Below, piece by piece: positions 2,869-11,221 of a stretch of 18,293 nucleotides of DNA (position 1 is its first letter; the number at the start of each line of letters is the position of its first letter). Below the pieces are notes generated by a model. That model was not told the DNA's origin and searched no databases. It saw only the letters and a program-made list of their open reading frames with translations. Source of the DNA: an uncultured Acetatifactor sp. (GTDB lineage: Bacteria > Bacillota > Clostridia > Lachnospirales > Lachnospiraceae); the NCBI GenBank assembly GCA_947626405.1, contig CANQSE010000009.1, positions 1-18,293 on the forward strand, given 5' to 3'. Position numbers and translations under genes: made by a program.

Positions 2869-2903
2869 AATAAGTGGAATATTGTTCCTTACCGGAGGTA
2901 AAC

Positions 2904-5423
2904 ATGGAAATAGTAAGACTGCAGATATCATGTATGATTCTGGTGGCGCTCATAGCGCTTCTGTATTATTCCGCTCAGAGGAAGCATGGATATTACCATA
3001 CGCTTTTTTCAACGCTGTTGTGCTGCACGGAGATATATCTGGGGATAAATCTTGGCTCAGTCTATGTCATCGAGCGGTACGCCGACGCGTCTCCCCTTAT
3101 CATAAAGCTTGTATTTGGGTCTTATTACGCCATGCTGGTGATTCTGACATATGTGGCGTTTCTCTATGTGGTGAAGGTTATAAAGGAAAATTATCAGGAA
3201 TCCAGGATCAAGGGATACAGGTGGAGTATTCCGGTCGTTGTCGCCCTGGTCTTTCTTGTGTTTTCTCCCTTTGAGATCAGAACCTTTAAGAGAGGAAGCT
3301 ATGCCTTCAGCATATCGGTTTATGTGTCCTGCATCGTGGTCATATTTTATATTCTGACGGTGTTTGGTCTTTTTATAAGGTACTGGAAATCCATAAATCA
3401 GAAAAAACGTCAGATTATAATGGGTGTTGCGGTTGTGACATCAGGAGCCGTTTTTTTGCAGACAGTGTTCCACACCGCAAGCATAACCGCGTTTGCCGTG
3501 ACACTTCTTGTTGTGGGTCTGTATCTGAGTGAGGAGAGTCCGGACGTAAAGCTTATTCAGGAGCTGCAGAAGGAGAAGGCGCGGGCGGACGCCGCGAACA
3601 ATGCGAAGTCGCAGTTCCTTGCAAATATGTCCCATGAGATGCGCACGCCTATCAACGCCATCATGGGAATGAACGAGATGATCCTGAGGGAGACGCAGGA
3701 GGAGGAGACAAAGGAACACGCCATAGACATAAAAAATGCCGCTCAGATCCTGCACAGCCTTATAAACGACACGCTGGATCTGTCCAAGATAGAATCCGGA
3801 AAGATGGAGATTGTTCCGGTTGAGTATCATTTAAGCAGCCTTATCAACGACCTTGTAAACATGGCCTCGGTCCGTGCGAACGCAAAGAATCTGGAGCTTA
3901 AGGTCAATGTGGATCCGGATCTTCCCTCGGTTTATTACGGAGACGACGTCAGGATCCGCCAGGTTGTGACAAATATCCTCACAAACGCCGTTAAATACAC
4001 AAAAGAGGGTTCGGTGACGCTGACGGTGAAAAAGAAGATGGTTGTTGACGGGCTGGCCGTGATACATTTTTCCGTAAAGGACACAGGCGTGGGGATCAGA
4101 CCGGAGGATATGTCAAAGCTGTACGGAGCCTTTGAGCGGATTGATGAGAGGGAGCACCGCCAGGAGGAGGGAACAGGTCTTGGCATGAGCATCACCATGA
4201 AGCTTCTTGAATTGATGGGAAGTAAAATAGAGGTGGAGAGCGAATACGGAAAAGGCTCCGAATTTTATTTTGATTTGGAGCAGAGGATCATAAATCCAAG
4301 TCCTATGGGAGATTTTCACGAGAGCATAAAACAAATGGCAAAGGATTACGACTACCGTGTTTCCTTTACGGCGCCGGACGCCGAGGTGCTTGTCGTGGAT
4401 GATAACGAAATCAACAGAAAGGTCTTTATCGGTCTTTTAAAGCAGACAAAGATCAAGGTCGTTGAAGCCGCAAGCGGCAGAGAATGTCTGGATCTCGTAA
4501 AAGAGAAGCATTTTGATCTGATCTTTCTGGACCATATGATGCCGGAGATGGACGGAATAGAAACTCTGCAGCACATGAAGGAGCTTTCTGCAAATGAAAA
4601 CAAGTGCAGCGAAACTCCCGTGATTATTCTCACCGCCAATGCAATAACGGGCGCAAAAGAAGAATATATGCAGAAGGGCTTTGACGAATATCTCGCAAAG
4701 CCTATTGTGCCGGAGAAGCTGGAGGATCTGATCTACCGGATGCTGCCAGGGGAGCTTTTGAAGGAAACTCAGGGTAAGGTGCCGGAAGACGCGCAGAAGA
4801 ACGTGAAAGAGGAAGAAAAGCTTCCCGAGCTTCCTCAGATTGAGGGCGTGGACTGGAGTTACGCGAGACTGCACCTGCCGGACGACGCTCTGATCCGCTC
4901 CACGGCCGAAGATTTCAGGCGCCGGCTTGAGACGGAAAGGGAGCTGGTGGAAGGGCTGGAGAGAGAGTCAGCTTCCGACGAAGGTCTGAAGAATTACCGC
5001 ATAGAGGTCCACGCGCTTAAGAGCTCGGCGGCCATGATAGGAATAATGCAGCTTTCCGCGCTTTCCGCGCTGTGCGAGCGTGCGGCTATAGACGGTGACA
5101 GACAAAGGATCGGGCTGCTTACGCCGATTCTCTCGGAGCAGATCACGCTGTACATGAACAGGCTTGAACCTTTTGCGCGTAAAGCGGCTGATAAAAAGAC
5201 ACTGGATCTCACGGAGACGGCGGCATTGTTGGACATGGTTAAGACAGCCATGCAGCAGCTTGATTTTGACGCCGCTGACGGCGCAATGGCGTCATTGAGG
5301 GAATACGGCTTTGAGGGAGAAGCCGCGCAGCTTATCGAAGCGCTGGACGCTCAGGTGTCGGCTCTTGACGCCGAAGGGGCTGTGGAAACCGCCGACATGC
5401 TCGCCGGGCTTTTGAAGGGATAA
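2904..5423 (+). CDS. Hybrid sensor histidine kinase with receiver and HPt domains
   Basis: This is an 839-residue membrane sensor kinase. The order is: six or seven hydrophobic helices (about 1-210), a coiled linker, a HisKA domain with [18 protein letters not shown] (His about 244), and an HATPase domain. The ATPase has an N box in [24 protein letters not shown] (about 393-398) and GTGLGMSI. A receiver follows (VVDDNEIN; phospho-Asp about 543 in [11 protein letters not shown]; Lys in LAKP), and then a C-terminal HPt domain with [12 protein letters not shown] (His about 703). All catalytic and phospho-acceptor residues are present, so a complete His-Asp-His relay in one chain is expected. No periplasmic sensor domain of note is seen, so the signal is probably sensed in or at the membrane. 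Start: an in-frame ATG exists at 2874, but GGAGGT five bases(ish) upstream of 2904 decides for the latter. The next gene, 42 bases on, is a receiver protein and the likely relay end point. Ligand unknown. Confidence 0.93.
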
Positions 5424-5465
5424 TTTGATTAATATATGCGCTGAGACGCACACGGGGGTGTAAAT

Positions 5466-6227
5466 TTGAAAAAAATACTATTTATCGGAAAATTTAATTC
5501 CCTTACGGAGGACACAAATTTCTTCCTTGGACAGTATTTTACGGTGCAGCTTTGCTCGGAAAGCCCGGACGCCGTTAAGGGGATGTTAAAAATGTGCGGG
5601 CCGGACCTGGTGCTTATAAGCCTGGTGGGATTAAACTCCGATTTTTCCCCTGTGTTCAGGGAGATCGAGGTAAATTATAAGAGAATGCCCGTTATTACAT
5701 TCGGCACAGAGAATGAGAAGGCGGAATTTAAGGATTTCTACGCAAACAGCCAGTTTCAGTTTATGAAACGCCCCATCAGCAATCCCGAGCTTTTGTACGG
5801 AATATGCAGACGCCTGAATCTGGATCCTGACGAGCTGGAGCAGCAGAAGAAAGAGCGCGCGGGAAGGGTAAAAAAACATGTCCTTCTTGTGGACGACGAC
5901 CCGACGCTGCTTCGCAGCCTGAAGTCCCTGCTCCAGGAGGAATATAAGGTTTCCATAGCGGTCTCGGGCGCGCAGGCAATGATGATTCTGGGAAAGGGTA
6001 TGCCGGATATAATATTCCTGGACTATGAGATGCCTGTGTGCGACGGAAGACAGACTCTTAAGATGATTCGTGAGATGGAGGAAACCAGGGATGTACCTGT
6101 AGTATTCCTGACGGGCGTGGCTGACAGGCAGCATGTACAGGCGATCCTCGACCTGAAGCCTGCGGCGTACCTTTTGAAACCGCCTGTAGCGGCTACAATT
6201 ATCAAAATGATAGAAGACTTGACTTGA
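5466..6227 (+). CDS. Double-receiver response regulator without output domain
   Basis: The protein has 253 residues and two receiver-like halves. The C-terminal half (about 136-253) is a canonical receiver: acidic cluster in LLVDDDPTL, phospho-Asp about 186 in FLDYEMPVCDG, Thr about 216 in FLTG and Lys about 238 in LLKPP. The N-terminal half (about 1-120) has the fold pattern and a final FMKRP motif, but lacks the acidic pocket and the phospho-Asp (LISLVGLNSD), so it looks like a degenerate receiver. No DNA-binding, GGDEF or enzymatic domain follows, so any effect would come from protein contacts or passing on phosphate. The start is a TTG at 5466 with GGGGGTG about seven bases upstream. It follows the hybrid kinase by 42 bases and is probably co-transcribed, making it the likely acceptor for the kinase HPt domain (inference). 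Confidence 0.88.
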   Translation: MKKILFIGKFNSLTEDTNFFLGQYFTVQLCSESPDAVKGMLKMCGPDLVLISLVGLNSDFSPVFREIEVNYKRMPVITFGTENEKAEFKDFYANSQFQFMKRPISNPELLYGICRRLNLDPDELEQQKKERAGRVKKHVLLVDDDPTLLRSLKSLLQEEYKVSIAVSGAQAMMILGKGMPDIIFLDYEMPVCDGRQTLKMIREMEETRDVPVVFLTGVADRQHVQAILDLKPAAYLLKPPVAATIIKMIEDLT

Positions 6228-6339: not shown

Positions 6340-7655
6340 TTACTCCGCGTTTTCCGTTTTTTCAGCCTTCTTTTTGCTCTTTGCGTTTACAAGGAAGAAG
6401 CTGCACAGAGCGGCAATGATATAGAGGACGATGGTGGCGTACAGCACGGCCTGATAACCGGTGGGGTTCACTGTATTTCCGTCGATTGGTTCCTCTTTAC
6501 CGAAATGCTTTACTATAAATGCGGACATCTGGTTTCCGGTCAGTCCGGCGATTGCCCAGGCGGAAAGAGTAATACCGTGGATGGCGCTGATATTCTTCAT
6601 GCCGTAATGGTCGGAGAGCAGTGTGGGCACGTTGGAGAAGCCGCCGCCGTATCCTGCGTTTACAACAAACAGCAGAATAAGCACAAGCACCATGAGGATG
6701 GTGGAGTCCTTACCGTTTACTATACCCTGTGTGGCGATGACAAGTCCGGTTGCCACGATGGAAAGGATCAGCATAATCTTGTAAATTGTGTTTCTGTCCT
6801 TAAATGTGTCTGCCCAGGCGGAAAATCCAAGACGGCCGCCCGCGTTGAAAATTGCGGTAACGGATGTGAGAACACCGACCATGCCTGCCAGACCGATGCA
6901 CTTGATAATCATCTTTTCCTGTGAAATCAGAGCCAGGCTGCAGGTAATATTTAAGTAGAACATAATCCAGATGCCGATGAAGGTGACGGGCTTTTGTCTG
7001 ATTACGTCGATAGCCCTCGAGCCCTTTTCCGTGGAGGTGGCCTCATGCCATCCGGCGGGTTTTGCCAGAAGGAGATGTCCCACGAACATCATCACAAAGT
7101 AAACGGCAGCAAGAATATAGAACATTTTGTAGATGCCGCCTTCTCCAAGGGATTTCAGCATGGCTTCCATGATGGGGCTCGCGATTGCCTTTGCGGCGCC
7201 GAAGCCTGCGACGGCCAGTCCGGTTGCCAGACCCTTTCGATCCTCAAACCAGAGCATCAGGGTCTTTACAGGGGAGAGGTATCCGGTGCCAAGGCCGATT
7301 CCCATGATAAATCCATAGCACAGATAGATGCCGATCAGGGACACAAGATTATGGGTATGTTCGCCGCCGTACCAGATAAAGAATCCGGTGCCGGCCATGC
7401 CCGCCGCGAAGCATATGGCGGAAATCAGCGAGGATTTATGTATATCCTTTTCAACGATATTTCCAAGAAAAGCCGCCGACATTCCGAGGAAGAAAATGGC
7501 GAAGCTGAACGCCCACTCGGTAGCGCCCTTGGTAAATCCGATATAATCGGGATATCCTGACTGAAAATCGACCAGCAGTACACCGTGCCGATGCTGCAGT
7601 GAAGTAAAAGCGCCGGAATCGCGGCACGGATCCATTTGTTTTGAATGTTTTTCAT
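6340..7655 (-). CDS. OFA-family MFS transporter, apparently frameshifted near the N-terminus
   Basis: The protein is a 12-helix major facilitator of the oxalate/formate antiporter (OFA) type. It has family features such as an N-terminal helix ending in GTVYCWSIFSQDI, the WAFSFAIFFLGMSAAFLG helix and a long run of Gly-rich helices (GIGLGTGYLSPV). The coding region is split: codons from the ATG at 7655 (MKNIQNKWIRAA) run to about 7550 in one frame, and the rest, from DYIGFTKG to the stop at 6340, lies in another. Adding one base in the GGG run at 7549-7551 (CCC on the coding strand) would join them into about 438 residues, a normal family length. The open frame starting at 7635 is thus not the real N-terminus. 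The frameshift is either a sequence error or a recent inactivating mutation. AAGGA lies about 12 bases upstream of 7655. The substrate is unknown; the family carries small carboxylates. It is divergent from the leucine-pathway fusion gene. Confidence 0.85.
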
Positions 7656-7864: not shown

Positions 7865-8044
7865 TGAATACAGCGTGACTGAATACAGCAGAGCGGCAAT
7901 AATTTTGAGAGATTTTTCAGGACTAATAAGGTCATATGAAAAACAAAAATTTAATCAATAATACAAAAGACAAATTCCTAAATTTACAGGACAACCGAAA
8001 ATAAGCAGAATAAATAAAGTCAATTAATAAATTAAAAATAATCA

Positions 8045-8073
8045 TTGTGTTTAGTTAAAAGCTGTGATACCAT
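8045..8073 (+). promoter_or_regulatory. Weak candidate promoter of the leuA-AraC fusion gene
   Basis: TTGTGT at 8045-8050 and TACCAT at 8068-8073 are spaced by 17 bases. Both boxes deviate from consensus, as is common for promoters that need an activator. The predicted start is near 8080, about 40 bases before the ATG. Confidence 0.3.
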
Positions 8074-8120
8074 AGAACAATCAGACAGTAAAAAGCATTT
8101 TGAGAGGGAGATTGAAGACT

Positions 8121-10154
8121 ATGGAAAAAGCAGCGAAAGACTTAAAGTCAAGGGCGGATGCGATTCGCAGAAAATATGTGAAATCTTACCATATGCCGCC
8201 AAAGGTTACTTATGACTGGGTGAAGAAGGACAGCATTGAGAAGGCTCCGATCTGGTGCAGCGTGGACCTCAGGGACGGCAATCAGGCGCTGATCGATCCG
8301 ATGAGCCTGGAGGAAAAGCTTGAATTTTTTCAGATTCTTGTTGATATCGGTTTTAAGGAAATTGAAGTGGGCTTTCCCGCTTCCTCGGATACGGAATACA
8401 ATTTTATACGCGCTTTGATAGAGCGAAATATGATTCCTGACGATGTGACGATTCAGGTGCTGACACAGGCCAGGGAGCATATCATACGCAGGACATTCGA
8501 GGCGGTGGAGGGAGCGCCGCATGCGGTGATCCATCTCTATAATTCCACATCTGTCGAGCAGAGGGAGCAGGTGTTTAAAAAAGACAGGGCAGCCATCAAA
8601 AAGCTTGCTGTGGACGGAGCTGACCTGCTCAGGAGACTTGCGGAGCGCACGGAAGGAAATTTTACCTTTGAGTACAGCCCCGAGAGCTTTTCGCAGACGG
8701 AGGTTGATTACGCGCTGGAGGTCTGCAACGCGGTTCTTGACGTGTGGAGACCCACTCCGGATCACAAGGCAATCATCAACCTTCCCACCACGGTTCAGGT
8801 TGCTATGCCGCATGTGTTTGCGTGCCAGGTGGAATATATGAATAAAAACCTTAAATATCGGGACAGCGTCGTCTTGAGCGTTCACCCCCACAACGACAGG
8901 GGCTGCGGCGTCAGCGATGCGGAATTTGGCGTGCTTGCCGGTGCGGACAGGGTGGAGGGCACTTTGTTTGGCAACGGGGAGCGAACCGGAAACGTTGACA
9001 TCGTGACTCTCGCGCTGAACATGATGTGCCACGGAGTGGACAGCGGACTGGATTTCTCAAACATTATGAAGATAAGGGAGGCTTACGAGAGGTTTACGGG
9101 TCTTAAGGTCCACGAGCGCACGCCCTATGCGGGGGATCTTGTGTTTACCGCATTTTCGGGATCCCACCAGGATGCAATCAGTAAGGGAATGACATGGCTT
9201 AAAGAGGGAAAGAGCGGAGATCGCTGGGATGTTCCGTATCTTCCCATCGATCCGGCGGATGTCGGCAGAGAGTACGAATCCGATGTAATAAGGATCAACA
9301 GCGTTTCGGGAAAAGGCGGAGTTGCGTTTGTGCTCAAGCAGCAGTTCGGTTTTTCGCTGCCCGCGGCGATGAAAGAGGAGGTGGGCTATCTGGTGAAGGG
9401 CGTGTCCGACAGGCGCCACCAGGAGCTGCTCCCCGCAGAGATATATTCGATATTTGAAGAAAATTATATAAAGCCCCGCAGCGTATTTCGCGTGCCGGAG
9501 TGTCATTTTAAGCAGGAGCGCGGGATCCAGGCGGAGGTTACCATAGAGCAGAACGGGGAACGGAGAGTGATCCGCAGTCAGGGAAACGGTCGTCTGGATG
9601 CGGTCAGCAACTGTCTCAAGATATATTTCGGTATAAGCTATGAGCTCTCGGTTTATGAGGAGCACGCCATATCAAAGGGATCGAGCTCCAGAGCGGCGGC
9701 CTACGTGGGAATTGTCCAGGACGGGAGGTCTTACTGGGGCGTAGGCGTCGATGAGGATATCATAAAGGCCTCAATTGCGGCGCTTGCGTCGGCTGTAAAC
9801 AAGCTGACGGCGGAACAGCATATTACAAACGGCAGGGAAGAAAGAATCGTAGAAATCATAAGCTTTATACAAAACGACTATAAGAATGTTACATTGGAAA
9901 GCCTGTCGGAAGCGTTCCACCTCTCCAGACCTTATCTCTCCAAATATATTCGGGAAAAGGCGGGGATGACCTTCCAGGAGGTGGTGAAAAAGGAGCGGAT
10001 GAAGAAAGCCCGCTCGCTTCTTCGCCAGACGGAACAGACGGTGGAGGCCATTGCCGCGGAGGTAGGATATGAAAACGCGGAGCACTTCAACAGGCTGTTT
10101 AAGAAAACCTACGGGATGACTCCCGTTCAGTACAGGAAGCAGGGACAGAACTAA
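8121..10154 (+). CDS. 2-isopropylmalate synthase (type II) fused to an AraC-type DNA-binding domain
   Basis: The protein has 677 residues from the ATG at 8121. Residues about 30-320 form an HMGL-like TIM barrel with metal-binding VDLRDGNQALIDP (about 49) and the HPHNDRG His pair (about 255-257). GNGERTGNVD and GDLVFTAFSGSHQDA follow. This wording is typical of the actinobacterial/yeast-like (type II) LeuA, which condenses acetyl-CoA with 2-ketoisovalerate in the first step of leucine synthesis. Residues about 450-562 are the LeuA regulatory (allosteric) domain, ending in WGVGVDEDIIKASIAAL. After a short linker, residues about 573-673 form a full AraC/XylS domain with two helix-turn-helix units (TLESLSEAFHLSRPYLSKYI and TVEAIAAEVGYENAEHF) and the closing RLFKKTYGMTPVQYRK. 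The frame is unbroken across the junction. Active-site residues are intact, so both activities are plausible. An in-frame TTG at 8100 is a longer start; GGGAG lies about ten bases upstream of 8121. The DNA targets are unknown. Confidence 0.93.
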   Translation: MEKAAKDLKSRADAIRRKYVKSYHMPPKVTYDWVKKDSIEKAPIWCSVDLRDGNQALIDPMSLEEKLEFFQILVDIGFKEIEVGFPASSDTEYNFIRALIERNMIPDDVTIQVLTQAREHIIRRTFEAVEGAPHAVIHLYNSTSVEQREQVFKKDRAAIKKLAVDGADLLRRLAERTEGNFTFEYSPESFSQTEVDYALEVCNAVLDVWRPTPDHKAIINLPTTVQVAMPHVFACQVEYMNKNLKYRDSVVLSVHPHNDRGCGVSDAEFGVLAGADRVEGTLFGNGERTGNVDIVTLALNMMCHGVDSGLDFSNIMKIREAYERFTGLKVHERTPYAGDLVFTAFSGSHQDAISKGMTWLKEGKSGDRWDVPYLPIDPADVGREYESDVIRINSVSGKGGVAFVLKQQFGFSLPAAMKEEVGYLVKGVSDRRHQELLPAEIYSIFEENYIKPRSVFRVPECHFKQERGIQAEVTIEQNGERRVIRSQGNGRLDAVSNCLKIYFGISYELSVYEEHAISKGSSSRAAAYVGIVQDGRSYWGVGVDEDIIKASIAALASAVNKLTAEQHITNGREERIVEIISFIQNDYKNVTLESLSEAFHLSRPYLSKYIREKAGMTFQEVVKKERMKKARSLLRQTEQTVEAIAAEVGYENAEHFNRLFKKTYGMTPVQYRKQGQN

Positions 10155-11221
10155 AACGGTTCCACCACTGTATGCTCTACTTTATTATAGCGAAGCTCCA
10201 GAAATTCAGCGCGGTTTTTAGTGTACATTTTTTTCAGCTCGTCTGTATACCCGACGACTACCCAGGGAAAAGCGGCATCTATTTTCCTCAGTATCTCAAG
10301 AAGTATGGCTTCGTTTGGCATCATGATTGAGACAGGATTTTTATGACCGTCCACATAGACCATCAGGTTATAGGTTGTACCGGTCTTTATGCCGTTGGTC
10401 CTGTGGGTGGTCGTAGTCTGGTAAACCCACTGGATTTTTGAGTTTATGATGGCCTGGGGTTTTGAGCCCTGCATGTAAAAGGTAAATATTCTGCCAAGGC
10501 GGAAATCCCCGTTTTTGGTGAACACAGCGGCGGAGTTGAAATCGGATTCAGCGTAGGATTCCGACATTCCGGCTTCGGAAATGGTGTTTTTAAGATCCTT
10601 AAGAGTTTTGCCGTTGGAAGCGTTTACGATTCTCAAAATACCGAAAACGATAAGCCCTATGCCTATGACAAAAAAAGCCGAAAATGCTATTTCATCCAGA
10701 AGCTTGTTGCTTGTTACGTCAATGTAATACGGAATCGTAATGGCGTCGATTTCATCGTCGGTAAAATAGTCTTCAAAAAAATCATGGAAGTATTTATATT
10801 CTTCACTGCCCATTTTTCTGACTGTTCCGGAGAGACTGACGGATTCGGAAAGATCTCCGTCAATGGTGCTGTCAAGGATTTTGTCCATTTCATCCTCATA
10901 GGAAGTGGGAAACTTGATGCCCATAAAATATTCTTCGTCTCCGGTGGGTATGACGCAGCTATAGCTTGTGGTTTTGCGTGTGTTTGTCTTTGTGTTGCGC
11001 TCGTACCGTTCCAGATAGTAACCGTAGTTTTGCGTAACTTCCAGGTCCACCTTCTGCCCCTTAAGATCCTCGGCGCTGATTTTGGAAAAATCCGCATAGC
11101 CTGTCACAGTGTAATAGGCGCCCTTCCACGAGACGGCGATCAGCACAATGCCTATGACGAAAAGCAGAATAGACAGCGCCAGAGAAGATTTTACAGCTTT
11201 TTTTCTGAGTGATTCAAACAT
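10151..11221 (-). CDS. Two-helix membrane protein of unknown function
   Basis: This 356-residue protein has one helix at about 14-31, an extracytoplasmic region of about 145 residues rich in charged and aromatic residues, a second helix at about 176-197 and a cytoplasmic C-terminal half of about 155 residues. It has no signal for cleavage and no recognised catalytic motif. It may match one of the Lachnospiraceae-restricted DUF families (possibly DUF6709), but I cannot confirm this. AGGAGGG five bases before the ATG fixes the start. Its TAG overlaps the TAA of the leuA-AraC gene by convergent reading (10151-10154), so the two transcripts must run into each other, and no terminator separates them. 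Confidence 0.8.
   Translation of the reverse strand: MFESLRKKAVKSSLALSILLFVIGIVLIAVSWKGAYYTVTGYADFSKISAEDLKGQKVDLEVTQNYGYYLERYERNTKTNTRKTTSYSCVIPTGDEEYFMGIKFPTSYEDEMDKILDSTIDGDLSESVSLSGTVRKMGSEEYKYFHDFFEDYFTDDEIDAITIPYYIDVTSNKLLDEIAFSAFFVIGIGLIVFGILRIVNASNGKTLKDLKNTISEAGMSESYAESDFNSAAVFTKNGDFRLGRIFTFYMQGSKPQAIINSKIQWVYQTTTTHRTNGIKTGTTYNLMVYVDGHKNPVSIMMPNEAILLEILRKIDAAFPWVVVGYTDELKKMYTKNRAEFLELRYNKVEHTVVEPF

Follow-up and report, generated by a model that had tools for sequence, protein, structure and literature searches.

Fusion of 2-isopropylmalate synthase with an AraC-type DNA-binding domain in Lachnospiraceae, and a conserved DNA element at its own promoter

In an uncultured Acetatifactor sp. 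and in many other Lachnospiraceae, 2-isopropylmalate synthase (LeuA) is encoded in a single frame with an AraC/XylS-type DNA-binding domain, and a conserved 40-bp element stands at the promoter of the fused gene. This conserved site suggests that the enzyme may regulate its own production and, in some species, that of other enzymes of the pathway. We estimate at about 80% the probability that the fused protein is a trigger enzyme acting at the promoter of its gene, where it is probably an activator of the AraC type, and also at other branched-chain genes in some lineages. The window means here the whole stretch of DNA analysed, 18,293 nt of contig CANQSE010000009.1.

Results

The fused gene is a single open frame on the forward strand (8121..10154), which encodes 677 amino acids comprising a complete type II LeuA and then a complete two-HTH AraC/XylS domain, and Pfam and NCBIfam bear out the in-frame fusion given in the preliminary description. 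The ATG at 8121, with a Shine-Dalgarno sequence (GAGGGAG region, 8103..8110), is preferred as the start over the TTG at 8100, the stop codon ends at 10154, and neither a stop nor a frame break is found in the fused frame at the junction near 9830. On this strand follow one another the HMGL-like catalytic barrel (residues 43-320, 8247..9080; Pfam E 4.5e-69), IPMS_D2 (residues 339-406, 9135..9338) containing the invariant H349, the LeuA_dimer regulatory domain (residues 436-562, 9426..9806; E 9.3e-28; predicted as beta-beta-beta-alpha twice), a short linker between the Pfam domains (residues 563-578, 9807..9854) and the AraC/XylS domain (residues 574-676, 9840..10148), which has seven predicted helices and matches HTH_18 (residues 595-674, E 2.4e-24) and HTH_AraC (E 5.2e-17). 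All the Pfam matches exceed their cut-offs. The NCBIfam subfamily model PRK03739 for 2-isopropylmalate synthase is matched with 798 bits against a cut-off of 455, and the equivalog model leuA_yeast is just missed (658 vs 697). No other LeuA_dimer match was found in the window's own draft genome (84.85% complete).

The residues that we take to be catalytic in Mycobacterium tuberculosis LeuA (R80, D81, E218, H285, H287, N321 and H379) have their equivalents, by alignment to 1sr9, in R51, D52, E188, H255, H257, N291 and H349, which are invariant in 47 fused sequences. Among the positions assumed to form the leucine pocket (numbered relative to 1sr9), L492, Y512 and A525 are invariant in these sequences and A516 is A or S. 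The intact domains and residues predict a working 2-isopropylmalate synthase, and the intact LeuA_dimer domain makes leucine control plausible. In the AraC part, two predicted helices, presumably the recognition helices by their role in the AraC/XylS family, lie at residues 603-614 (9927..9962) and 653-664 (10077..10112) and hold the invariant residues P604, Y605, S607, K608, Y609 and I610, and E654, H655, F656, R658 and F660, respectively. Moreover, the AraC part is under purifying selection, with a median dN/dS of 0.065 (127 usable pairs), beside 0.043 for the catalytic part (237 pairs) and 0.097 for LeuA_dimer (148 pairs), when 300 pairs were taken and those outside the dS limits dropped. 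AlphaFold modelled the barrel parts, the regulatory domain and the seven-helix AraC domain fairly confidently; residues 332-399 fell below pLDDT 50, and with a pTM of 0.51 the arrangement of the domains was left uninterpreted. The 50 Foldseek matches listed comprised relatives of LeuA and further barrel enzymes, none of them an AraC entry.

The neighbouring genes of the window are of varied kinds. An OFA/lactate-type MFS transporter gene lies on the reverse strand at 6340-7635 and is frame-broken, by assembly or genuinely, since its N-terminal part continues in another frame near 7560. A hybrid histidine kinase with receiver and Hpt-like domains and then a response regulator occupy 2874-6227; in the latter Pfam recognised one receiver domain and no output domain. 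On the other side, a gene for a DUF6709 protein (10151-11221, reverse strand) is convergent with the fused gene and overlaps it by 4 bases.

The fusion is widespread in the family. A full-length fused match was found in at least 50 of 200 sampled family genomes, and others have an unfused LeuA that ends near residue 563. At class level, 14 of 393 genomes (the window's own included) gave a full-length match, three of them outside the family, and at phylum level 4 of 398 did so, one (G837) from another class; in the family of genome G384, one of eight genomes was fused. The best 120 of about 8000 homologues of the window protein share its Pfam set, as do the best 120 of about 8000 homologues of a distant fused relative. 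Named records with the fusion include strain GAM79, Eisenbergiella tayi and E. porci, and clusters named Clostridium beijerinckii, Dorea, Bariatricus and Hespellia are among the matches listed for the distant fused member. Databases contain the LeuA-AraC architecture already, and where the protein is named it is simply 2-isopropylmalate synthase. An artefact of assembly or frame might be suspected from the draft state of the genome and the frame break in the adjacent transporter gene, but its probability is negligible: assembly error is ruled out by the recurrence of the open fusion in these family genomes, single-contig ones included, and in GAM79, whose record is titled a complete genome, and the same fusion stands in the cluster named C. 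beijerinckii. Separate leuA and araC frames, which the preliminary description had named as evidence against a fusion, do occur in two genomes (loci L188 and L216), both of which group with the fused genes.

When the LeuA part was set on a tree of 95 rows, the fused label could be explained by 8 changes, compared with 31 in shuffles, and the starred branches force 4. We take the fused genes to form a single main clade with subsequent losses and with two splits, in a tree of which many forks are open. Four unfused leuA genes inside the fused clade have neither AraC domain nor upstream element and are probably losses. Among the matches listed, the fused LeuA is accompanied in at least four genomes (G016, G007, G123 and G183) by another type II LeuA that is unfused and 52-53% identical.

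A repeated pattern was first visible on reading the upstream regions of fused genes. The unsupervised motif search, fed with as much as 500 nt of upstream DNA from each of 98 non-redundant fused genes, yielded a 40-bp element with an occupancy of 0.93 and a log-likelihood of 1532, against about 130 for shuffles. In the window this element, the putative operator of the AraC domain, lies at 8010..8049 on the forward strand (PWM 33.4 bits) and touches the -35 box from upstream; the next-best scores in the same stretch are 0.1 bits on the forward strand and 5.6 on the reverse strand. It is the only match at E <= 1 to an 84-site sequence model in its own genome (84.85% complete). In the 84 sites, preselected for a score of at least 26, the alignment positions T11, C12, A13 and A14, in the left half of the element, are invariant. 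With the matrix trained on loci L002-L111, the element reaches at least 15 bits in 105 of 110 fused loci, a set in which a few places are present in duplicate, and three of the five misses have less than 130 nt of upstream DNA. When 80 loci with 1.94 million positions were scanned, 89 of 90 matches of at least 11 bits fell within 900 nt of the start of the fused gene.

The left half of the element (8011..8023, core like TAAAATAAATCAA) is repeated directly but imperfectly at 22 bp in the right half (8033..8046, TTAAAAATAATCAT), which overlaps the -35. The direct 13-column self-match of the PWM at offset 22 is 7.09, between the 95% (6.03) and 99% (7.32) levels of shuffles, and the inverted 13-column self-match of 2.14 is below the 95% level of 4.50, so that a purely inverted operator was rejected. 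The repeat structure is imperfect, and smaller half-sites show both arrangements: 30 of 95 sites have a TCA repeated directly at +22 (at most 10 in shuffles), and 40 of 95 have it inverted at +10. The -35 hexamer TTGTGT (8045..8050) is spaced by 17 nt from the -10 hexamer TACCAT (8068..8073), which has a TG at 8065-8066 and stands at a fixed offset from the element. In 81 of 95 sites a -10-like hexamer occurs at one of two adjacent fixed distances from the element, as a raw count without shuffle control. A scan for plain consensus promoters did not list the proposed promoter and gave no excess over shuffles. An extra ATCA half-site lies at 8080-8083, downstream of the -10 and near the expected transcription start, and 18 of 95 sites have a TCA at that distance (offset +61, counted from the element's first TCA).

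The element accompanies the AraC domain. At 11 bits or more it was found before 18 of 20 held-out fused genes and, among 40 loci whose leuA is unfused or split and whose upstream DNA was readable, in 2 (L188 and L216). When the loci were divided by the AraC domain, the element was present in 52 of 55 AraC-bearing loci, 30 of which belonged to the training set of the matrix, and in none of 39 loci without AraC; L188 and L216 were counted as AraC-bearing, and L225 was left out of the operator counts as it lacked upstream DNA. In L188 and L216 the AraC domain, 57% and 46% identical to that of the window, lies directly after leuA in another frame, an arrangement for which domain separation, reinitiation or frameshifting may account. 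One of the pair keeps a strong element (28.4 bits) and the other a weak one (13.0), and therefore the element follows the AraC domain. All four fused genes outside the family whose DNA was read carry the element, including those of other families and of another class. Three of the 55 AraC-bearing loci lack it within 700 nt: in L017 the sequence model has a match behind a T-box, at 836 nt upstream, whereas L205 and L206 show no element at 11 bits. In another locus (L052), just the right half is clear (-4.7 bits). The rows are related, and there were two independent contrasts on the starred branches and six when all branches are counted, a number too small for a sign test to reach significance, so that the result is given as a strong association without a formal test.

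With regard to RNA leaders, a T-box is an RNA that senses uncharged tRNA, and a T-box string was found upstream in 29 of the 40 unfused or split leuA loci. Most fused loci that were read have the DNA element without a T-box string, and the window has no Rfam T-box match at gathering score. Among L002-L111, 18 loci have both a T-box string and a fused gene; the element precedes the T-box in 17 of them within the scanned range. All 18 show a leucine triplet after GAA (CTC in 12, CTG in 6), under a pattern that allowed leucine or phenylalanine triplets only. Rfam confirmed T-boxes in 10 of 12 loci and in 5 of 8 sources of a second set, two of those five being the same locus fetched twice; L086 and L212 have the string and do not reach the gathering score. 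Because the element stands before the T-box in nearly all these loci, both transcription start and leader look leucine-controlled there.

To survey sites elsewhere, the 84-site model was applied, with the same filters, to 50 genomes with the fusion and 50 without it. In most fused genomes the best match is at the fused gene. At E <= 0.05, the fused set had 25 sites away from leuA, 22 of which were examined (those left out were in G107, at a contig end, G115 and G037); five of the 22 precede leu/ilv genes and two are inside ORFs, and six of the 22 come from the single genome G132. The five stand before leuC in two genomes, a leuD-leuC pair, ilvN-ilvC and ilvB, where leuC was named by an equivalog model over its cut-off and the leuD-leuC pair by subfamily models. 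In the unfused genomes, 14 of 15 sites were examined, and none precedes leu/ilv genes and 10 are inside ORFs; the genes behind the four intergenic control sites were named, and one of the 14 lies in G063, which has an out-of-frame AraC domain. Other secondary sites of the fused genomes precede a 2-oxoacid:ferredoxin oxidoreductase subunit gene and unrelated genes. In L172 and L176, strong secondary sites stand before BASS-type and SNF-type sodium-dependent transporter genes, possibly for keto acids or amino acids.

In directed scans of fused genomes, 1 of the 28 readable leuC loci and 2 of the 28 ilvC loci had a site upstream, as against 0 of 28 readable leuC loci in unfused genomes; two loci in each leuC set were unreadable. 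On these counts a general leucine regulon was rejected. Most of the fused genomes that were examined lack the site before leuC and ilvC, so that action in trans is sparse; sites in trans are rare and lineage-specific, and the fused gene itself appears to be the main target. In the window's own genome (84.85% complete) there is no second site at E <= 1, and searches at E <= 1e-80 gave neither leuC nor ilvC. The proposal of the preliminary description, a trigger enzyme for leucine or branched-chain genes, is partly supported, by the conserved element at its own promoter and before some leu/ilv genes; a wide branched-chain regulon is not general.

Discussion

In the proposed mechanism, the leucine-sensing, dimer-forming regulatory domain of LeuA, joined by a short linker to the AraC/XylS domain, would occupy the place of the ligand-binding domain of AraC. 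We infer that the fused protein binds the 40-bp element, which lies just upstream of its own gene's weak -35 and touches it, and that it probably recruits RNA polymerase there in the fashion of AraC-type activators. Expression of leuA would thereby depend on whether its own product is leucine-bound or leucine-free, and in some lineages the same action may take place before leuC, leuD-leuC, ilvN-ilvC or ilvB. Leucine as the signal is suggested by the intact regulatory domain; its binding could turn activation off, which is logical for feedback, or on. A fuller version of this reading, to which we give about an even chance, is that LeuA is its own leucine-responsive AraC-type activator in which the feedback site of catalysis also sets DNA binding, that in some lineages a T-box RNA is stacked behind this promoter as a second leucine sensor, and that gene and operator spread together as a self-regulating unit.

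Activation is favoured because the element lies upstream of a weak -35, and repression is the main rival. The fused protein may be an autorepressor that uses the same element and blocks the promoter, as PutA, a repressing trigger enzyme (PMC8249747), does on its own genes. The overlap of the element with the -35 box would suit such blocking; however, most of the element is upstream of the core promoter, the -35 is poor and the -10 keeps a fixed distance, and we hold autorepression to be unlikely. A site mostly upstream of a poor -35 is the activator geometry of AraC and XylS.

A less probable explanation is that the element belongs to another regulator of leuA, while the AraC domain acts elsewhere or serves as an assembly module only. 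Binding by the fused protein is a prediction, and the motif is AT-rich and placed where a general activator could sit. However, the element goes with AraC, whether fused or adjacent out of frame, and not with leuA, it accompanies the fused gene into other families and another class, and a global regulator would have many sites, whereas nearly all the matches in the 80 scanned loci are at the fused gene. It is very improbable that the AraC domain is no more than a degenerate passenger that does not bind DNA: the plain enzyme name given by the sources would fit a passenger, but the invariant residues of the recognition helices, the low dN/dS and the co-occurring DNA element argue against it.

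If the trigger-enzyme reading is true, a core amino-acid pathway contains an enzyme-transcription-factor hybrid that is widespread in Lachnospiraceae and, by database name, present in Clostridium beijerinckii. One allosteric site could then be followed into two outputs, catalysis and transcription, the hybrid would be a natural design for a leucine-sensing activator, and in the T-box lineages one gene would read both free leucine and charged tRNA. The distribution of leaders and elements also suggests a swap between two controls of leuA, the RNA T-box and the DNA operator. The predicted operator makes the idea directly testable.

Several known systems resemble parts of this arrangement. Leucine T-box leaders place leuA under leucine status, as is proposed for the fused protein, and differ in being an RNA sensor where the fused system has a DNA element and an AraC domain. 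The best solved relative is the type II LeuA of M. tuberculosis (1sr9; leucine-bound 3fig; E 3.6e-154, 46% identity to the window protein), which has the barrel and the regulatory domain, but its chain of 644 residues ends after the latter without a DNA-binding domain. AraC and XylS share the two-HTH C-terminal domain and an element next to the -35 box, their activator sites covering about two helical turns beside it. Their N-terminal sensor is of the cupin type, for a sugar or an aromatic, whereas that of the fused LeuA is a complete, apparently active biosynthetic enzyme. In Ada-type proteins an AraC HTH is joined to a methyltransferase, and such a protein also has an AraC-type region and an enzyme in one chain and activates transcription including its own; the difference is that Ada serves DNA repair, is activated by irreversible self-methylation and contains an unrelated enzyme.

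The trigger enzymes PutA, BirA and NadR are alike in that an enzyme has its own DNA-binding domain and a transcription factor role; the enzymes and the DNA-binding folds are others. Five trigger enzymes are given for E. coli, and PutA, a metabolic enzyme with a DNA-binding domain, is described as a repressor that binds the putA-putP spacer (PMC8249747). The fused LeuA differs from these in having an AraC domain at the C-terminus, after a domain for allosteric amino-acid sensing, and probably in acting as an activator. The preliminary description was aware of no LeuA-AraC fusion, and within the open-licence literature we found no description of the fusion or of its operator. Enzymes with DNA-binding domains are already known as trigger enzymes, of which the LeuA-AraC fusion with its 40-bp element would be a variant.
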